64,000 nt of DNA from Methylocystis sp. Sn-Cys (GTDB lineage Bacteria; Pseudomonadota; Alphaproteobacteria; Rhizobiales; Beijerinckiaceae). The translations under genes and the position numbers were made by a program. This document shows, piece after piece, positions 31,326-41,726 of the stretch. Every line of letters starts with the position of its first letter. Within the stretch, counting starts at the first letter, position 1. The stretch is taken from NCBI RefSeq assembly GCF_016745395.1, contig NZ_JAERVJ010000001.1, positions 124,001 through 188,000 on the forward strand. The letters run 5' to 3'. The notes below the pieces were generated by a model. The model had not been told where the DNA came from. It ran no database searches and worked only from the letters and a program-made list of their open reading frames with translations.

Positions 31326-34037
31326 ATGACTTCGCTCGACAGTTTCAAATCCCGCCAAAAGCTCGTCGTGGGGGATAAAACCTATGATTATTTCTCACTG
31401 AGAGCGGCCGAGGCGAACGGGCTCGAAGGAGTCTCCAAACTCCCCTATTCGCTCAAGGTCGTTCTCGAAAACCTGCTGCGTAACGAGGACGGACGCTGGG
31501 TCACCAAGGACACGATCCACTCCTTCGCCAAATGGCTGACCGAGAAGGGCAAGACCGAGCGCGAGATCGCCTTTTCGCCGGCCCGCGTGCTGATGCAGGA
31601 TTTCACCGGCGTGCCGGCGGTGGTCGATCTCGCGGCGATGCGCGACGCTTTTGTTGCGCTGGGCGGCGACCCGCAGAAGATCAATCCGCTCGTGCCGGTC
31701 GATCTCGTGATCGACCATTCGGTCATCGTCGACGAGTTTGGGACGCCCAAGGCCTTCGAGCAGAATGTCGAGCTCGAATATGAGCGCAACGGCGAGCGTT
31801 ACCGCTTCCTGAAATGGGGCCAGTCGGCCTTCGACAATTTCCGCGTCGTGCCGCCGGGCACGGGCATCTGCCATCAGGTCAATCTCGAATATCTCGCGCA
31901 GACGGTCTGGACCCGCACCGAGAAAGCCGATGGCGCGGCGGTCGAGGTCGCCTATCCCGATACGCTCGTCGGCACCGACTCGCATACCACCATGGTCAAC
32001 GGCCTTGCCGTGCTCGGCTGGGGCGTCGGCGGCATCGAGGCGGAGGCCGCCATGCTCGGCCAGCCGCTCTCCATGCTCGCGCCCGAGGTGATCGGCTTCA
32101 AGCTGACCGGCGCGCCCAAGGAAGGCGTCACCGCGACCGACGTGGTGCTCACCGTCACGCAAATGCTGCGCAAAAAGGGCGTCGTCGGCAAATTCGTCGA
32201 ATTCTATGGCGAGGGCCTCAACCATTTGTCGCTCGCCGACCGCGCGACCATCGCCAATATGGCGCCGGAATATGGCGCGACCTGCGGCTTCTTCCCGGTC
32301 GACGCCGAGACGCTCGCCTATCTGAATATGTCCGGCCGCGCCGCCGAGCGCATCGCGCTGATCGAGGCCTATACGCTGGCGCAGGGCATGCTGCGCGACG
32401 CCTCCTCGCCCGACCCCGAATTCACCGACACGCTGGCGCTCGACCTCGCCGAGGTCGCGCCCTCGCTCGCGGGCCCCAAGCGCCCCGAAGGCCGCGTGCC
32501 GCTGGAGGACATCGGCAGGGCCTTCGAGACCGCGCTCGCCGGCGAATATAAAAAGGACGGCGGTCTCGGGCCGCGCCACAAGGTCGAGGGCACGAATTAC
32601 GACCTCGGCCATGGCGACGTGGTCATCGCCGCCATCACCTCCTGCACCAATACCTCGAACCCGAGCGTGCTGATCGGCGCGGGGCTGCTGGCGCGCAACG
32701 CCGTCGCCAAGGGCCTCAAGGTGAAACCGTGGGTGAAGACCTCGCTCGCGCCGGGAAGCCAGGTGGTCGGGCAATATCTCGCCAACTCCGGCCTGCAGAA
32801 GTCGCTCGACGAATTGGGCTTCAATCTCGTGGGCTTTGGCTGCACGACCTGCATCGGCAATTCCGGGCCCCTGCCGGCGCCGGTCTCCAAGACCATCAAC
32901 GCCCATGACCTCGTCGCGGCCTCGGTGCTCTCCGGCAACCGCAATTTCGAGGGCCGCGTGAACCCCGACGTGCAGGCGAATTATCTCGCCTCGCCGCCGC
33001 TCGTCGTCGCTTTCGCGCTCGCGGGCACGGTCGCCACCGATCTGACGAAAGAGCCGCTGGGCCAGGGCTCGGACGGCCAACCGGTTTATCTGCGCGACAT
33101 TTGGCCGTCGAGCGCCGAGATCGACTCGTTCATCCGCGACAATGTCACGCGCGACCTGTTCCGCGAGACTTACGCCAATGTCTTTGCGGGCGACGAACAT
33201 TGGCGCGCGGTGGCGGCCCCGGCCGGCGAAACCTACGGCTGGGACGACAAATCCACCTACGTCCGCAACCCGCCCTATTTCGTGGGCCTCGCCAAGCAGC
33301 CCAAGCCCGTTACGGATATCGTCGGCGCACGCGTCCTCGCGCTCTTTGGCGACAAGATCACCACCGACCATATTTCCCCGGCCGGCTCCATCAAGGCCGC
33401 CTCGCCCGCGGGCAAATGGCTGATGGACAATGGCGTCGCGCAGAAGGATTTCAACCAATACGGCACGCGGCGCGGCAACCATGAAGTCATGATGCGCGGC
33501 ACCTTCGCCAATATCCGCATCAAGAACAACATGATGAAGGACGCCCATGGCGTCGTGCCCGAAGGCGGCCTCACCAAATACTACCCCGGCGGCGAGACGC
33601 TCTCGATCTACGACGCCGCCATGCGCTACCAGAAGGACGGCGCGCCGCTCGTCGTCTTCGCCGGCGCCGAATATGGCAATGGCTCCTCGCGCGACTGGGC
33701 GGCGAAGGGCACGGCGCTGCTCGGCGTGCGCGCCGTGATCGCGCAGAGCTTCGAGCGCATCCACCGCTCCAATCTCGTCGGCATGGGCGTGCTGCCGCTG
33801 ACCTTCGAGCCCGGAACGAGCTGGGCGTCGCTCGGCCTGACCGGCGAGGAGACCGTGGCCATTCGCGGGCTCGAGAAAGGACTTGCACCGCGCCAGACGC
33901 TGGCCGCCGAAATCACCTTCCAGAGCGGCAAGGTTGTCTCCGCCCCGCTCCTCTTGCGGATCGATACGTTCGACGAATTGGAATACTTCAAAAATGGAGG
34001 CATTCTGCCTTACGTGCTGCGACAACTCGCCCCGTAA
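31326..34037 (+). CDS. acnA: Aconitate hydratase A
   Basis: The TCA-cycle enzyme interconverting citrate and isocitrate through a [4Fe-4S] cluster. The 903-residue protein is full length. Cluster ligands are Cys440 (SCTNTSN), Cys506 and Cys509 ([10 protein letters not shown]), equivalent to E. coli AcnA. The ATG at 31326 is preceded by AAGGAC; an upstream in-frame ATG at 31260 gives a non-family extension. Monocistronic in appearance. Confidence 0.97.
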
Positions 34038-34064: not shown

Positions 34065-34093
34065 TTGACGGCTCGTTTTTCTTGCGACATCTT
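34065..34093 (+). promoter_or_regulatory. Candidate sigma-70 promoter of Cys-rich gene 1
   Basis: TTGACG (34065-34070) and CATCTT (34088-34093) with 17-bp spacing, 138 bp before the start codon. The Cys-rich gene 2 has the same arrangement (TTGACA, 17 bp, CATCGT) at the same distance, which makes this more credible than an isolated match. Confidence 0.45.
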
Positions 34094-34202: not shown

Positions 34203-34436
34203 ATGAAGAAATTCTCCATTGCCACGGCCGTCGCTATCTTTGCGGCGATGACCGCTCCGGCCTTCGCTAGCTGCGACACCCATGCGGAAGACGAGCAGGC
34301 CGTTTGCGCCTCCAAGTGCGAGGATCAATATCTGAAGGATCAGCAGGGCTGGACGGCCGATATGTCGAAAGTCAAGTCCAACAAGAAGGCCTGCGACGAG
34401 AAGTGCGGCTGCCCGCAGAATTCGAAGGGACTCTGA
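34203..34436 (+). CDS. Small secreted Cys-rich protein 1 (six Cys)
   Basis: A 77-residue protein, unrecognised. The signal peptide spans residues 1-22 (FAAMTAPAFA). The mature part of about 55 residues contains six cysteines (C1 in SCDT, C2/C3 in VCASKC, C4 in KKAC, C5/C6 in EKCGC) and ends PQNSKGL. It is paralogous to the next gene (shared CDT, SKC.D.YL, KAC.EK.GCPQNS). Export plus paired Cys suggests a disulfide-bonded periplasmic or secreted protein. It has its own promoter and terminator. A metal-binding role is possible but unsupported. Confidence 0.8.
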   Translation: MKKFSIATAVAIFAAMTAPAFASCDTHAEDEQAVCASKCEDQYLKDQQGWTADMSKVKSNKKACDEKCGCPQNSKGL

Positions 34437-34465
34437 GCTTTTCCTCGGAGCTGAGAAAAATGCGA

Positions 34466-34491
34466 GGGCGCGCGAAAAGCGCGCCCTTCTT
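34466..34491 (+). terminator. Intrinsic terminator of Cys-rich gene 1
   Basis: The stem GGGCGCGC/GCGCGCCC with a GAAAA loop is followed by TTCTT, 30 bases after the stop codon. The same stem core recurs in the terminator of the paralogue. Confidence 0.8.
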
Positions 34492-34647
34492 GCCGACCAT
34501 CTCAAAATTTTTAGCCCCGGGGAGGCGCCCGAGAGCGGGGGGCCCTTATGGGAATAATCTTTTGGATTCAATCTTTAGCAATAGGGAAGCGCGGGCTCGC
34601 CAGCCTGCCGATCGCCCCCTCGTCTCTGTCATATCAATGACGTGTGA

Positions 34648-34676
34648 TTGACACTGGGCCAATCTTCCCCCATCGT
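34648..34676 (+). promoter_or_regulatory. Candidate sigma-70 promoter of Cys-rich gene 2
   Basis: TTGACA (34648-34653) and CATCGT (34671-34676) with 17-bp spacing, 133 bp before the start codon, mirroring the promoter of the first paralogue. Confidence 0.45.
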
Positions 34677-34780
34677 CCGCCCCGCTTTGCGCGTTATGAG
34701 GGGCCGTTACTGTCGGCGGGAGGGTTCTGCGCCAGCGCAAGCAAGCACAGCCGAAAATATGAAGAAGAGGAAGCGTCAAA

Positions 34781-35020
34781 ATGAACAAATTCGCCTTTGT
34801 TGCGGCGGCCCTGTTTGCCAGCATGATGACCCCGGCCTTCGCCGATTGCGACACCCGCAACGCCGACGATGACAAGCAGGCTGCGGCCGCGTCGAAGTGC
34901 TACGACGAATATCTCGCCCGCAAGCAGAACTACGGCGCGAATGTCGACGAGCTGCGCGCCAACTTCAAGGCCTGCAATGAGAAGGCCGGCTGCCCGCAGA
35001 ACTCCGACCTGCTGAAGTAA
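34781..35020 (+). CDS. Small secreted Cys-rich protein 2 (four Cys)
   Basis: A 79-residue paralogue of the preceding protein. The signal peptide spans residues 1-21 (MMTPAFA). The mature part begins DCDTRNAD and contains SKCYDEYLARKQN and KACNEKAGCPQNS, aligning along its whole length with protein 1. It keeps four of the six cysteines: the first of the VCASKC pair is Ala here and the EKCGC Cys is Ala, a paired loss compatible with one missing disulfide. GAGGAA precedes the ATG. Function unknown. Confidence 0.8.
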   Translation: MNKFAFVAAALFASMMTPAFADCDTRNADDDKQAAAASKCYDEYLARKQNYGANVDELRANFKACNEKAGCPQNSDLLK

Positions 35021-35095: not shown

Positions 35096-35590
35096 TTACT
35101 GCCGATAGACTTTGCCGTCCGGGCCCTTCCAGCCGTTCGAGTCTTCGTAGAAGCGATATTCCTCGTCGAAGACCACCGTTTCACCCGGGGCCACATATTG
35201 CTTGCCCTTGGGATCGGAGTTACGCGGCGCCGTCACATAATGCTTGCTGGGCGAGCAGCCTTCCTTGACCTTGCCGGCGTCGTCGGGTTTGCAGTCGAGA
35301 TTCGCGCCTTCCGGGAACTGCACTTTGGCGTTGAAGAAGATCTCGAAGCCCTTCTCGCCGGTCGCGTGCATTTCGAGCGCTTCCGACATGGTCTGCTTGA
35401 AGTCGAGAATCTTGCCGGGCTTGTCGAAATGCTGCGGGAGGAGATTTTCGAAAATCTTGCGGGCGTGCTCCTCGGTCGGATCGCCGCAGCCGAACCAGCA
35501 GATGGCCGCGGCCGGACCGGCCGCCATGGGCGCCGCGACCAGCGCCAGCGCAAAACCTCTGGCGAAGAATTTCAGATACGCGCCTCGCAT
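35096..35590 (-). CDS. Secreted protein of unknown function
   Basis: A 164-residue protein, not recognised. The signal peptide is about residues 1-29 (FALALVAAPMAAGPAAA). The mature part starts with ICWFGCGDPT and has four Cys in all (CWFGC, LDCKP, GCSPS), FENLLPQHFDKPGK, and a C-terminus rich in Tyr, Gly and Asp. It is convergent with the Cys-rich pair and could be functionally linked to them, but nothing proves this. Confidence 0.7.
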   Translation of the reverse strand: MRGAYLKFFARGFALALVAAPMAAGPAAAICWFGCGDPTEEHARKIFENLLPQHFDKPGKILDFKQTMSEALEMHATGEKGFEIFFNAKVQFPEGANLDCKPDDAGKVKEGCSPSKHYVTAPRNSDPKGKQYVAPGETVVFDEEYRFYEDSNGWKGPDGKVYRQ

Positions 35591-35669: not shown

Positions 35670-37070
35670 TCAACGCCCGGCGTCGGGCGTCGCGGTCCCG
35701 ACCCAGGAGTCTTTCACCTGCTCGAAATGGACCGCCGGGTCATATTGCCACGCGTCTAGGCTGAGCGTTTCCGTCGACAGCCGGCCCATGGCGGCGAGCA
35801 CGGCGTAAGAGGCGACCACGCGCTCACGCTGGGCGAAGACGAGACTGATGCGGGCGTTCAACAATTCCTGCTGCGCGTTGAGAATGTCGAGCGTCGTGCG
35901 CAGACCGGCCTTGGCCTCCTCCCGCACGCCATAGAGCGCGCGCTCGGCCGCCGCGATCTGCGCCTGCGCGGCGGCGATCTGGGTTTTCGCCGCCTGCAGG
36001 GCGCCCCAATTGGCGCGCACCAGCGCGATGACGTCGGCGCGCGCCACATCGACGTCGAGACGCCGCTGCCCCGCCGTCTCCTTGGCTTCCCGGACTTGCG
36101 AATAGGTTATGCCGCCCTCGTAGATCGGCACATTGAGCCGCCCGCCGATCGACGCGCCAATGTTGCGGTTATAGACGCCGCTGATGTCCGTCTGGGTGAA
36201 GACATTGCCCACGATCGAGAATTTCGGCATGAAATCCCCTTCGATCACTTTGATGTCGAGGTCCGCCGAGTCGGCGTCGTGCAGAGCCGCGAGAATGACC
36301 GGATGCTCCGCCAGGGCGTTGCGCTCGACCTCTTCGCGGGTTTTCGGGATCAGACGATCGACCGCGGCGCCGGGGGATAATTTCTTCGGTTCGACGCCGA
36401 TCGTCTGCCGATAAAAGCCGACGCTCGCCTCGAGCGCGGCGCGCGCCTGACCGACGAGCGACTGCCCGGCGGCGAGCCGCGCCTCGGCCTGCGCAATGTC
36501 GGTCAAAGTAATCTGGCCGTAATTGTAGCGCTCCCGCGTCTGGCGCAATTGCTCGGCGAGAACCGCGACGTTGTTTTCCTGCAATTTGAGCGCGGCCGTG
36601 TCGCGCAAGACGTTCATATAGGCGGAGGCCGCGTTGAAAAGCACGCGCTGCTCGGTAAGACGCAGCCGCTCGCGCCCGGCGAAGACATTCGTTTCCGCCA
36701 TGCGGGTGGCGTTCTGCGTTTTGAAACCGTCGAAGACGGGCTGCTCCACCGTGAGGGTCGCCGAGCGGGGCATGCTGCCCCCCGTCTGAATGCTTTTGGT
36801 CTGGACGCGGGTTAAGGCCGGATTGGCAATTTCCTCGTCGATTTGCCGCGCGATCGCGCGATTTTCCTGCTTGCCGAGATAGAGACTTGCATTGGCGCGC
36901 GGACGCAAGCCCGAGCGCGCCTGCGGCACCTTCTCGTCGAGCGCGCGCACGCCGGCGCGGCCAGAATTCAGCACCGGACTATTGTTGTAAGCGCGCAGCA
37001 AGGCGCCATCGAGCGTCTCGGCCGACGCCGCAGACGACGTGAAACACAGAGCAAAAAAGGCGGCCCGCAC
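35670..37070 (-). CDS. TolC-family outer membrane efflux protein
   Basis: An outer membrane channel of 466 residues with the long alternating helical hairpins of the family (segments such as YNYGQITLTDIAQAEARLA and LDILNAQQELLNARI). It is closer to TolC than to CzcC. No ATG exists near the mature start; the in-frame GTG at 37070 gives a short signal peptide (AAFFALCFTSSAASA). The longer frame to 37301 runs through repeat D2 and is rejected. It follows the RND pump gene on the same strand and is its likely outer membrane partner. Confidence 0.85.
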   Translation of the reverse strand: MRAAFFALCFTSSAASAETLDGALLRAYNNSPVLNSGRAGVRALDEKVPQARSGLRPRANASLYLGKQENRAIARQIDEEIANPALTRVQTKSIQTGGSMPRSATLTVEQPVFDGFKTQNATRMAETNVFAGRERLRLTEQRVLFNAASAYMNVLRDTAALKLQENNVAVLAEQLRQTRERYNYGQITLTDIAQAEARLAAGQSLVGQARAALEASVGFYRQTIGVEPKKLSPGAAVDRLIPKTREEVERNALAEHPVILAALHDADSADLDIKVIEGDFMPKFSIVGNVFTQTDISGVYNRNIGASIGGRLNVPIYEGGITYSQVREAKETAGQRRLDVDVARADVIALVRANWGALQAAKTQIAAAQAQIAAAERALYGVREEAKAGLRTTLDILNAQQELLNARISLVFAQRERVVASYAVLAAMGRLSTETLSLDAWQYDPAVHFEQVKDSWVGTATPDAGR

Positions 37071-37092
37071 GAAAGCGGCCGCGCAACCGCTG

Positions 37093-37236
37093 GGCGTGAG
37101 CTCATCCCTCCCCTTTACGGGGAGGATGGCCCCGCGCAAGCGGGGTCGGGTGGGGCAAGCCCCAATAACTGTCGTAGCGGCGCGAACCCCACCCGACGGC
37201 TTTTGGCCGCCGACCTCCCCGAAAAGGGGAGGTATT
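37093..37236. repeat. Family D palindromic repeat, copy D2
   Basis: The same CCCTCCCCTTTACGGGGAGG and CCTCCCC...GGGGAGG ends as D1, with matching flanks GGGCGTGAGC and TTGGCGCC-like. It lies between the RND pump gene and the TolC-type gene, only about 20 bp before the latter's start. Confidence 0.88.
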
Positions 37237-37297
37237 TGGCGCCCGACGTCCGAGCAAAATTGGCGCTCGGCCGATTGTCCTGTGCGGCGCGCCTGTC

Positions 37298-40200
37298 TCA
37301 CACCGCCTCCCTTTCACGCGCGGCGGCGAGCGAGGCTTTGTTTTCACCAAAGAAGGCGTAAAGCGCCGGCAGCACGATCAGCGTGAGCACCGTCGCGCTG
37401 ATGAGACCGCCGATGACGACAGTGGCGATCGGCCGCTGCACCTCGGCGCCAGTCGAGGTCGCGAGCGCCATCGGTACGAAGCCGAGCGAGGCGACAAGCG
37501 CCGTCATCGTCACGGGACGCAGACGCGTCATGGCGCCTTTGAAGATCGCCGCGCGCTCATCCATTCCGCTCACCATGAGCTGGTGAATATAAGTGCGCAT
37601 CACGAGGCCGTTGAGCACGGCGACGCCGGAAAGCGCGATGAAGCCCACGGCCGCAGAGACAGACATGGGCATGCCGCGCAGCCACAGAGCCAGCACGCCG
37701 CCAGACAAAGCAAGCGGCACGGCCGAGAAGACCAGCAGCGCGTCGCGCGCCGAGCCCAGCGCCGAGAACAGCAGCAGGAAGATCATGAAGAAGCAGACCG
37801 GCACGACGATCATGAGCCGCGCCCGCGCCGCCGCGAGATTTTCGAACTGCCCGCCCCATTCGATCCAATAACCGGCGGGGATTTGCACCTTGGCGTCGAC
37901 CTTGGCGCGCGCTTCATTGACGACCGAGGCGATGTCGCGTCCGCGCACATTGGCGCTGACGACCACGCGCCGCTTGCCGTTCTCGCGCGAGATCTGGTTC
38001 TGTCCGTCGACGGTGGAGAAGCTTGCCACCTGCTTGAGCTGGATGGTCGAGATGCGGCCCTGCGCGTCGGGCGGCAAGGAGACGGGGATCGTCTCCAAAG
38101 CGCTGGCGTCCTCGCGCAGATTGTCGCGCAGGCGCACGAAGATCGGGAAGCGACGGTCGCCCTCGAAGATCATGCCCGCCTGCTCGCCGCCGATCGCCGC
38201 GCCGATCGTGTCCTGCACGGCGCCGAGCGACAGGCCGTAGCGCGCAATGGCGCTCTTATCGACCTTGATGTCGAGCACCGGCAGGCCCGTCACCTGCTCG
38301 ACCTTCACATCGGTCGCGCCCGGCGTGGCGCGCAGGATGGCCGCGATATGATTGGCGGTCTTCAGCATGGCGTCGAAGTCCTCGCCAAAGACCTTGACGG
38401 CGATGTCGCCGCGCACGCCGGCGAGAAGCTCGTTGAAACGCAATTGAATGGGCTGCGAAAACTCATAGGCGTTGCCGGGGAGCTTCGAGATCGCGGCCGA
38501 AATATCGTCGATCAGCGTATCCTTGGGCAGATGCGGATCGGGCCACTGATCTTCCGGCTTCAGCATGATGAAAGTGTCGGTCAGATTCGGCGGCATGGGG
38601 TCGGTCGCGACTTCGGCCGTGCCGGTCTTCGAGAAGACGTAATCGACCTGCGACAGCTTGCGAATCGCGTTCTCGACGTCAATCTGCATCGCCTGCGACT
38701 GCGTGAGCGATGTGCTCGGAATGCGATTGGCCTGCATTGCGAGATTCTTCTCATCGAGCTTGGGGATGAACTCCTGCCCGAGGTTCAAATAGAGAAGCAC
38801 GGCGAAGAGGAAGGAGGCGACGCCGATCGCCATAACTTTCACCGGCGCCTCCATCGCCCAACGCAAGGCCGGCTCATACATGCGCTTGAGCGAGCCCACG
38901 ATCGCATTGTCGTGCTCTTCGCTGGCGCCCGAGACGAAAAGCGCGATCATCGCGGGGAAAAAGGTGAGGGAGAGAAGGAACTCCGACAGAAGCGCGATGA
39001 TCACGGTCATCGCCATCGGATGGAACATCTTTCCTTCGACACCCGTGAAGCTCAGGATCGGTAAGTAGACGAGAATGATGATCGATTGGCCATAGACGGT
39101 GGGCCGCCGCATCTCGACGGCTGAATCGATGACCGTCTCGAGACGTTCCTCGGTGGTGAGCGGGCGCCCCGCCATATGCTGGCGTTCGGAGAGGCGGCGC
39201 AGGCTGTTCTCCGCGACGATGATGGCGCCGTCGGCGATGAGGCCGAAATCGAGCGCGCCGAGACTCATCAGATTGGCGCTGATCTTGCCGATATACATGC
39301 CGATGGCGAGCAGCAGCATGGTCACCGGAATGACCGTCGCCGTCACCACCGCCGCGCGGAAATTGCCCAGCATCACGAAGAGCACGAGGATGACGAGCCC
39401 CGCGCCTTCCAGGAGATTCTTGGCGACGGTCTTGATAGTCGCGTCGACCAGGAGCGTGCGGTTGAGGATCGTCTTGACTTCGATCCCCGGGGGAAGGGAC
39501 TTCGTGACGGTCTTCACCTTGGCGTCCACCGCCGCCGAGACGGTGCGGCTATTGGCGCCGATCAGCATCAGCGCCGTGCCGATAACCACTTCCTCGCCAT
39601 TCATGCTGGCCGAGCCCGTGCGCAGCTCCTTGCCGATGGCGACATTGGCGATCTCGCCTACGCGCACGGGCACGCCATTTCGCGTCGTCGCCACGACATT
39701 GGCGATGTCCTCGACAGTCTCCAGCCGGCCGCCGCTGCGCACGACGAGGCCCTCGCCATTGCGCTCGACATAGCCGGCGCCGCGGCTGACGTTGTTCTTC
39801 TGGATCGTCGCCGCAAGATCGCCGAAGGACAGGCCGAGCGATGTTAGCTTCGCGGGGTCGGGCTGCACATGATATTGCCGCATGAAACCGCCGAGCGAAT
39901 CGACGCCGGCGACGCCCGGCACCGTGCGCAATTGTGGGCGGATGATCCAGTCCTGCACGGTGCGCAGATAGGATTCCTGCGCGACGGTCGTACGCAGCAT
40001 CGCGCCTTCCGGCGTCAGATAGGCGCCGTCGCGCTGCCAGCCGGGCTCGCCCGCATCGGCGAGCTTATGCGGCTCCGCGTAGCGCACGGTCCACATGTAG
40101 ATTTCGGACAGGCCCGTCGCGATCGGGCCCATGCGCAGCTCGATCTGCGGCGGAAAATCCTCGCGCGCCTGGGCAACGCGCTCATTCACCTGCTGACGCG

Positions 40201-40516
40201 CGAAAAAAATATCGACGCCATCGGAAAAGACCGCCGTCACCTGCGCAAAGCCGTTGCGCGAGAGCGAGCGCGTATAGTCGAGACCCGGAATGCCCGCGAG
40301 CGCGTTCTCGATCGGATAAGTGACCTGCTTCTCCATCTCGAAGGCGGAGAGGGCCGGCGCGCGGGCGTTGATCTGCACCTGATTATTGGTGATGTCGGGA
40401 ACGGCGTCGATCGGCAGATGCACGAGCGCGAAAGCGCCGAAGGCGCCGACCAGCGCGACCAGGAGGACGACCAGCCAGCGGCTATGGACCGAAAAGGCGA
40501 TGATCCGCTGCATCAT
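37298..40516 (-). CDS. czcA: HME-RND heavy-metal efflux transporter (CzcA/CusA type)
   Basis: A proton-driven inner-membrane pump exporting metal cations across both membranes. The 1072-residue protein is full length with twelve helices and two large periplasmic loops. The proton-relay segment in helix 4 reads DFGLIADGAIIVAEN (Asp423, Asp429, Glu436), the HME pattern. The exact ion (Co/Zn/Cd, Ni or Cu/Ag) cannot be settled by eye. The order on the minus strand is fusion protein, pump, outer membrane channel. Confidence 0.92.
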   Translation of the reverse strand: MMQRIIAFSVHSRWLVVLLVALVGAFGAFALVHLPIDAVPDITNNQVQINARAPALSAFEMEKQVTYPIENALAGIPGLDYTRSLSRNGFAQVTAVFSDGVDIFFARQQVNERVAQAREDFPPQIELRMGPIATGLSEIYMWTVRYAEPHKLADAGEPGWQRDGAYLTPEGAMLRTTVAQESYLRTVQDWIIRPQLRTVPGVAGVDSLGGFMRQYHVQPDPAKLTSLGLSFGDLAATIQKNNVSRGAGYVERNGEGLVVRSGGRLETVEDIANVVATTRNGVPVRVGEIANVAIGKELRTGSASMNGEEVVIGTALMLIGANSRTVSAAVDAKVKTVTKSLPPGIEVKTILNRTLLVDATIKTVAKNLLEGAGLVILVLFVMLGNFRAAVVTATVIPVTMLLLAIGMYIGKISANLMSLGALDFGLIADGAIIVAENSLRRLSERQHMAGRPLTTEERLETVIDSAVEMRRPTVYGQSIIILVYLPILSFTGVEGKMFHPMAMTVIIALLSEFLLSLTFFPAMIALFVSGASEEHDNAIVGSLKRMYEPALRWAMEAPVKVMAIGVASFLFAVLLYLNLGQEFIPKLDEKNLAMQANRIPSTSLTQSQAMQIDVENAIRKLSQVDYVFSKTGTAEVATDPMPPNLTDTFIMLKPEDQWPDPHLPKDTLIDDISAAISKLPGNAYEFSQPIQLRFNELLAGVRGDIAVKVFGEDFDAMLKTANHIAAILRATPGATDVKVEQVTGLPVLDIKVDKSAIARYGLSLGAVQDTIGAAIGGEQAGMIFEGDRRFPIFVRLRDNLREDASALETIPVSLPPDAQGRISTIQLKQVASFSTVDGQNQISRENGKRRVVVSANVRGRDIASVVNEARAKVDAKVQIPAGYWIEWGGQFENLAAARARLMIVVPVCFFMIFLLLFSALGSARDALLVFSAVPLALSGGVLALWLRGMPMSVSAAVGFIALSGVAVLNGLVMRTYIHQLMVSGMDERAAIFKGAMTRLRPVTMTALVASLGFVPMALATSTGAEVQRPIATVVIGGLISATVLTLIVLPALYAFFGENKASLAAAREREAV

Positions 40517-40529
40517 GGTCTTAGAGCCG

Positions 40530-41726
40530 TCACTCCTCGGGAATTTCGCTCTTGCCGGCTTCGGCCTTCAGCACGAAGCTGTTATCCACCGCGATCGTCT
40601 CTCCGGGCGAGAGGCCTTTCACGATCTCCACAGAACCTTCGTCGCCGTCGCCCAGTTCGACGACGCGCTTTTCAAAGCCATTCTTCACTCGCACGAAGAC
40701 CGTCGGCTCATTGTGGATGAGCTGCACCGCGGCGCGCGGCGCGACGACTTTCGCGGGGCTCTGTTCAAGTGCGATCTCGGCGTTGAGCAGAACGCCAGGG
40801 TGAATGGCGTAATCCGGGTTTTTGAAGGCGGCGATCACATGGCCCGTGCGCGTCTCGGGCGTGATGAGGGCGTTGACGACGCGCACGGCGCCTTGGAAAG
40901 CGCGCCCATCCGCCCCCTTGACGACCACCGGCTGTCCCACGCGCACGCTGGCGAGATTGGCGATGGGAACCGCGAGCTCGGCTTCCACCTCGGAAAGATC
41001 GGCCAGAACGTAAATCTGGCTTTCCGGCGTCACCGGCTGGCCGAGATTGGTCAGGCGCTCGATGACGCGGCCCTTGATCGGCGCGCGAATCTCCTTCTCA
41101 CGCAGCCGCGCGATGGGCTGATTGGCGAGCGCCGTCATCTCGCTTTCGGAGAGATCGAGGGCCGCGAGCTTGCCGCGCGAGAGATCGAGGCGGAGCTTCG
41201 CTTCCGTGAAAGTCGCCTTGGCTTTCAGGAACAGTTGCTCGGCGGTGATCTTCTTTTCGAAGAGGCCCTTCTCGCGCTGGAAGAGCTGGGATTGCAGCTC
41301 GTAATTGGCGAGCGCGGCGAGATATTCGCTCTTGGCGTCAGCGACCTCGCGCGAATCGATGACGGCGATCGTCTCGCCCTTCGCCACCTCGTCGCCGAGT
41401 TTCTTGCGCATTTCGGCGACGACGCCGGAGACCTTGGCGGCGACGCGGGCGAGATGGTCGGGATCGGGCTTCACCGTCGCTGGCACGGTGATCTGGCGCT
41501 TGAGCACGCCGGGGCCCGCCTTCGCGACGCCGATCTTGGCGGCGTCGATCTGCTCGGGCGACAGCTTGATCAGCCCTTCGGGCGCAGCGGGGCTCGCCGC
41601 CTGCTGCGCGCCGGCGCCGGAGTCGCCGGGCGCACTCCCGCGCATCTTCGCGAAAAGGCCCGGCAGAGCCGCGCCAATGGCGAGGCTCACAATGATTGCG
41701 AGAAGAAGGGGCGCTTTGCGGGGCAT
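40530..41726 (-). CDS. czcB: RND periplasmic adaptor (CzcB-type membrane fusion protein)
   Basis: A 398-residue periplasmic adaptor for the downstream pump. The N-terminal anchor is residues 7-25. The biotinyl-lipoyl halves and the long coiled hairpin (about 135-220) are visible (VSGVVAEMRKKLGDEVAKGE and IRAPIKGRVIERLTNLGQPV). It precedes czcA by 13 bases. It lacks the N-terminal His-rich metal-binding extension found in some CzcB proteins. Confidence 0.9.
   Translation of the reverse strand: MPRKAPLLLAIIVSLAIGAALPGLFAKMRGSAPGDSGAGAQQAASPAAPEGLIKLSPEQIDAAKIGVAKAGPGVLKRQITVPATVKPDPDHLARVAAKVSGVVAEMRKKLGDEVAKGETIAVIDSREVADAKSEYLAALANYELQSQLFQREKGLFEKKITAEQLFLKAKATFTEAKLRLDLSRGKLAALDLSESEMTALANQPIARLREKEIRAPIKGRVIERLTNLGQPVTPESQIYVLADLSEVEAELAVPIANLASVRVGQPVVVKGADGRAFQGAVRVVNALITPETRTGHVIAAFKNPDYAIHPGVLLNAEIALEQSPAKVVAPRAAVQLIHNEPTVFVRVKNGFEKRVVELGDGDEGSVEIVKGLSPGETIAVDNSFVLKAEAGKSEIPEE

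Follow-up and report, generated by a model that had tools for sequence, protein, structure and literature searches.

Tandem, apparently exported cysteine-rich paralogues beside acnA in Methylocystis: a candidate helical hairpin family with nested disulfides

Twin CX9C (CHCH) proteins such as Cox17 are disulfide-stapled helical hairpins, one of them a copper chaperone. The mitochondrial small Tims (Tim8/9/10/13, PF02953) are oligomeric chaperones of the intermembrane space. They are described as helix-loop-helix proteins with twin CX3C motifs that are oxidised after transport (PMC5509380, PMC3759932); one of these accounts places the motifs 11-16 residues apart and describes the proteins as absent from prokaryotes (PMC5509380). 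Plant alpha-hairpinins are characterised by CX3C-Xn-CX3C, two antiparallel helices and disulfides, with CX3CX4-20CX3C given as their 4C criterion (PMC11591084). In bacteria, the account of PmoD gives it a cupredoxin domain, two conserved cysteines and a C-terminal membrane helix (PMC6189053). The subject here is a tandem gene pair, P1 and P2, in a 64,000-nucleotide stretch of DNA from Methylocystis sp. Sn-Cys that is referred to below as the window. The two genes belong to a gene family that is conserved in methane-oxidising bacteria and named in none of the libraries used.

The paralogues and their cysteine pattern

P1 (34203-34436, plus strand) encodes a 77-residue, apparently exported protein whose six cysteines, at positions 24, 35, 39, 64, 68 and 70, make up twin CX3C motifs and two flanking cysteines. 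P2 (34781-35020, plus strand) encodes a 79-residue paralogue, likewise apparently exported, that retains the equivalents of cysteines 24, 39, 64 and 70 and has alanine at the equivalents of C35 and C68. Over their full length the proteins are 53% identical, and the alignment includes the segments CDT, SKC.D.YL and KAC.EK.GCPQNS. Their putative signal peptides, recognised by eye, consist of MKK, a hydrophobic stretch and AFA before SC in P1 (34203..34268, plus strand) and of MNK, a hydrophobic stretch and AFA before DC in P2 (34781..34843, plus strand), and the alanine preceding the putative cut is invariant across a 33-row family alignment.

The cysteine pattern was followed through loci L001-L051, whose 74 often overlapping entries reduce to 54 distinct mature domains. 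Six cysteines are found in 43 of these, in the pattern C-x(10, 12 or 14)-C-x3-C-x(24, 26 or 27)-C-x3-C-x-C, with the CX3C and CX3CXC spacings fixed in all 43. The remaining 11 have replaced Cys 2 and Cys 5 alone, and mixed cases number zero, so that the count from Cys 1 onward is exactly six or four, always even, in 54/54; two members have an extra cysteine in the signal peptide. A previous sequence-only reading had described tandem exported cysteine-rich paralogues with six and four cysteines, the two that differ having changed together, and both observations are borne out, the second across this larger set. The four-cysteine domains form one clade (support 99/99), with a single change in every one of 200 bootstrap trees, and the paired loss of Cys 2 and Cys 5 is therefore, on this phylogeny, a single event. 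Because the clade sits beside six-cysteine proteins from the same locus position, the second after acnA (fork 92/74, in a tree rooted at its midpoint), loss is the simpler reading of the change from six to four.

P1 and P2 are real genes under purifying selection. In pairwise comparisons among orthologues, counting only pairs with a synonymous rate (dS) of 0.1-1.5, the ratio of nonsynonymous to synonymous rates (dN/dS) has a median of 0.193 and a maximum of 0.43 for P1 (38/66 pairs, 12 sequences) and a median of 0.143 and a maximum of 0.39 for P2 (50/55 pairs, 11 sequences). This conclusion also draws on synteny, the order acnA-P1-P2-minus-strand gene being kept in 14/16 genomes of the window's genus; tolC follows wherever the contig is long enough. 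The same acnA-P1-P2 order recurs in eight named loci, two of them apparently contigs of the same genomes; six of the eight records are titled Methylocystis or Methylocystaceae. The tandem pair offers a natural test of what one disulfide is worth, in which the same scaffold at the same locus is maintained under selection with one clasp fewer.

Predicted fold and proposed role

For mature P1, AlphaFold2 predicts helices at residues 9-25 and 32-45, joined by a short loop, together with a third helix that is short (predicted local distance difference test, pLDDT, 84.2; predicted template modelling score, pTM, 0.64); for mature P2, helices are predicted at 11-27, 34-48 and 51-57, again with a short loop between the first two (pLDDT 82.7, pTM 0.67). 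Helix limits, not coordinates, were used, and the register of the cysteines was obtained by residue arithmetic, not from distances. In mature P1 the cysteines are residues 2, 13, 17, 42, 46 and 48, and 13+46 equals 17+42 (35+68 and 39+64 in the full-length protein), as holds for residues that face each other in an antiparallel hairpin; the facing cysteines would put the hairpin centre at 29.5, and the predicted loop has its midpoint at 28.5. On these helix limits Cys 2 and 5, the pair that differs between the paralogues, and Cys 3 and 4 are predicted to lie in antiparallel register between the two helices. Other conserved residues can be placed on the same model. An Asp invariant in 54/54 domains is the residue just before helix 1 and fits an N-cap, and a Gly (52/54) two residues past helix 2 fits a C-cap; a conserved Gln (52/54) has no helix-cap explanation. 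Structure comparison returned weak matches only, several of which, MexA among them, contain known helical hairpins.

In the proposed explanation, P1 and P2 would be Sec-exported envelope proteins oxidised after export by a DsbA/DsbB system. A DsbB homologue is present in the source genome, found by a search aimed at DsbB and not DsbA, and exported cysteine pairs are therefore expected to be oxidised; the features looked for in a Dsb substrate, an even number of cysteines in the mature protein and a host oxidising pathway, are both found, with DsbB as the evidence for the pathway. Each protein would fold as an antiparallel two-helix hairpin whose open end is closed by nested disulfides, forming in P1 a ladder of C24-C70, C35-C68 and C39-C64, and in P2 the same ladder minus the middle rung C35-C68, P2 being a paralogue that would have lost one clasp. 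Conserved residues would largely serve the scaffold, as cysteines, Asp N-cap and Gly C-cap, and because much of the conservation is of this kind, the likely role is that of small and robust modules for binding or structure, sited in the periplasm or at the cell surface, rather than of enzymes. While the genes, the selection on them, their conserved cysteine pattern and the predicted helices stand as results, the export and location of P1 and P2, the packing of the hairpin, the pairing of the cysteines and the role are inferred; together these describe an exported helical hairpin with nested disulfides that serves as a non-enzymatic binding or structural module, a reading to which a probability of roughly 0.6 is given.

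Two considerations bear on the weight of the paired loss. The joint change at Cys 2 and 5 is one event on one branch, which lowers its weight to a single observation, and were two of the six cysteines to be lost at random, 3 of 15 possible pairs would agree with a nested three-disulfide scheme. The expectation of the sequence-only reading that the two cysteines changed together as partners in one disulfide gains from the predicted helix register; the paired loss is consistent with such a bond and is not proof of it.

Distribution, genomic setting and rival readings

The distribution of the family was surveyed with a two-sequence profile, at an expectation value (E) up to 0.01, and later with a 33-row profile. 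In what follows, g1 denotes the window's genus, and g42 and g40 other genera of the same taxonomic family, g42 being presumably Methylosinus, which is a guess only. Among 248 genomes of that taxonomic family, 28 were matched by the two-sequence profile, including G005 (E 0.0035), which the 33-row profile missed; the latter matched 27 with best E values no higher than 2.2e-25, and another five weakly, at E 0.009 to 0.063. The 27 positive genomes comprise 16 of g1, ten of g42 and one of g40, and no g1 genome is among the non-matches listed. In 398 genomes of the phylum, matches of the 33-row profile at E up to 0.01 were confined to the window's genus, and in 385 genomes of the class this profile gave the source genome itself and 11 weak matches (E 4e-4 to 0.1, best 4.3e-4), so that neither sample holds confident relatives outside the two main genera. 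Four of the 11 weak class-sample loci, including the two best, were read, and the whole cysteine pattern was absent. Across the 17 genomes with weak matches, made up of G005, the five from the taxonomic family and the 11 from the class, seven loci were read and judged to be chance, none combining the whole cysteine pattern, an open frame and a signal peptide.

Within its range the family varies in place and number. The source genome has two confident copies, P1 and P2, with a third match at E 0.6. Two genomes of the same genus, G089 and G203, have single copies located elsewhere, and the g42 loci are not at the acnA locus but in other genomic places. Two M. parvus plasmid records carry a further six-cysteine copy, outside the 54-domain set, and a stretch of 4.3 kb that includes a family member occurs twice at 99% identity in L041 and L042 (contigs 2 and 1 of G234), which suggests recent duplication. 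In a second subfamily the N-terminal linker is longer and the sequence terminates at CGC. Selenocysteine was considered for nine matches with an internal TGA and rejected, the TGA being an ordinary stop directly after CGC.

P1 and P2 fall below every curated cut-off in Pfam and NCBIfam, and among 33 members there is no convincing match, the best E being 0.018 in Pfam, 0.0022 in NCBIfam (one member) and 0.013 in PADLOC; a PHROGs scan of P1 and P2 only gave a best value of 0.028 for P1 and none for P2. Open-licence full-text literature, supplements excluded, yielded no paper on the family. The suggestion of the sequence-only reading that this is a new exported, disulfide-bonded family accordingly stands as to a coherent family that profile searches do not connect convincingly with a known one; export has been judged by eye, not by a predictor, and the disulfides belong to the proposed explanation.

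P1 and P2 are flanked by acnA, whose end is at 34037, and by a gene on the minus strand (35096-35590), and each looks as if it were transcribed separately. Aligning the upstream regions of nine orthologues gives a promoter-like site before P1, TTGACG-N17-CATCTT (34065..34093, plus strand; TTGACG in 9/9, CATCTT in 7/9), and another before P2, TTGACA-N17-CATCGT (34648..34676, plus strand; TTGACA in 9/9, CATCGT in 8/9). In a 17-row alignment the TTGACA is not seen in three more loci, L037, L038 and L040, and a generic promoter scan found neither site. A GC-rich inverted repeat lies downstream of each gene in the nine orthologues: the terminator-like repeat after P1 (34465..34487, plus strand), which is present in them with changes and which the generic scan reports on the minus strand only, and a terminator-like hairpin with a T run after P2 (35062..35084, plus strand), seen in both the terminator scan and the orthologue alignment. 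The terminator scan itself is hardly above chance, giving three sites here where shuffled sequences give 1.8 (sd 1.0). Membership of an acnA operon is not favoured, because relatives away from acnA lie in other neighbourhoods and both genes keep promoter- and terminator-like sites of their own. The P2 leader (34680-34780) is well conserved, with CCGCTT and GGCGGGAGGG, and shows no clear RNA structure; it has one full match in the source genome. As an RNA element it was set aside, Rfam matches all being below threshold and the consensus fold weak (11 pairs, two with changes on both sides).

The minus-strand gene encodes a 164-residue exported-looking protein without a Pfam or NCBIfam match above cut-off, whose relatives occur in 26/248 genomes of the taxonomic family at three to four matches each, some weak. 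As a partner of the cysteine family it was rejected, its presence in the same 26 g1 and g42 genomes being explained by shared ancestry alone. Beyond it, at 35670-41726 on the minus strand, a TolC-like protein (by eye), an RND pump (ACR_tran) and a HlyD/CusB-type adaptor follow in a row; the pump motif resembles that of the divalent-metal class.

Among other roles, the binding of Cu(I) or another soft metal by the thiols in the periplasm, with the proteins acting as chaperones for the metal, or as buffers of it, in copper-dependent methane oxidation, is unlikely and remains a weak lead. The particulate methane monooxygenase (pMMO) subunit family PF04744 occurs in 31 of the 248 genomes and in 24 of the 27 family-positive ones, the other three being g1 genomes, but PF04744 occurs without the P1/P2 family in seven of the eight g40 genomes that have it; the P1/P2 family looks like a lineage marker and not a fixed pMMO companion. 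The efflux genes adjoining the window locus also speak for copper, as do copper-type neighbours in three of ten inspected regions (L041/L043 and L044/L045 being the same kind of locus twice). Pfam classification of ten proteins, eight from neighbour regions and two from the window, returned five of copper type and one iron permease: two multicopper oxidases less than 5 kb from members in L095 and L051, and PCuAC, CopD and CopC less than 5 kb from the member in L100. These proteins were chosen by eye, however, and the category was picked after the neighbours were known; at the acnA and thiC/dapB loci, inspection by eye revealed no copper gene. Such genes are not everywhere, with three to seven PF07732 and three to four CopC matches per genome in four genomes, but these counts are too low, since the L095 oxidase is missing from the PF07732 matches, and they cover these two copper families only. 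Moreover, P2 is under purifying selection without two of the would-be ligands. In L100 (1-6750) the member has a relative of the 164-residue protein close by, along with CopC, a PCuAC protein and a fusion of CopD with cytochrome c. Should a copper role be demonstrated, the family would be one more part in the periplasmic copper handling of methanotrophs. The fuller proposal, in which this new exported twin-CX3C family is a marker of the Methylocystis/Methylosinus lineage and supports methane oxidation through copper supply or redox balance in the periplasm, P1 being the more and P2 the less cross-linked of two forms that alternate between free thiols and disulfides, is distinctly unlikely.

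Secreted antimicrobial or bacteriocin-like peptides of the alpha-hairpinin type would also be small, exported, cysteine-rich and, as predicted here, two-helical, and the additional copies that some genomes and a plasmid carry agree with this. Such a role is nonetheless very improbable, given a net charge (K+R-D-E) with a median of -2 and a range of -4 to +1 over the 54 mature domains, unlike cationic peptides, the lack of an immunity gene recognisable by eye next to P1 and P2, and the one chromosomal place kept in 14/16 same-genus genomes.

Comparison with known cysteine-rich families

Descent of the twin CX3C hairpin from a common ancestor with the mitochondrial small Tims, of which P1 and P2 would be distant bacterial relatives, is extremely improbable: the family profile searched against PDB sequences gives only three matches under E 10, all of them Tim9 chains (E 0.21-0.39), two of which align Cys 1 and the first CX3C with Tim9 cysteines, and zf-Tim10_DDP (PF02953) matches 2/33 members when values up to E 10 are counted (0.035 at best) and neither P1 nor P2, but no match is significant, no alignment pairs both CX3C motifs, PF02953 is found in none of ten members rescanned at E up to 1, and the reported absence of small Tims from prokaryotes (PMC5509380) stands against it.

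Like the small Tims, the P1/P2 family combines twin CX3C motifs with a small, in this case predicted, helix-loop-helix. The 24, 26 or 27 residues between the motifs in 43/43 six-cysteine members nevertheless lie outside the 11-16 of the small-Tim account, and the family differs further in its two additional cysteines outside the CX3C motifs, its bacterial signal peptide and its predicted helices between the two motifs, counted here as a difference. The CHCH proteins are set apart by CX9C, as that account gives it (PMC5509380), where the family has CX3C. PmoD of Methylocystis and Methylosinus is similar in being, as described, exported and cysteine-bearing, with several paralogues and copper gene neighbourhoods (PMC6189053); unlike PmoD, the family is predicted to be helical, with four to six cysteines and, by eye, no C-terminal membrane helix. 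Nearest in motif are the plant alpha-hairpinins, whose fold is a helix-loop-helix with two disulfides. For the family two helices are predicted, and it differs in being bacterial and not cationic and in the x24-27 between its CX3C motifs, against the x4-20 of the published 4C core (PMC11591084). On the best reading the hairpin would be lineage-specific and analogous to those of the small Tims and the plant alpha-hairpinins, yet outside the spacing rules of both.
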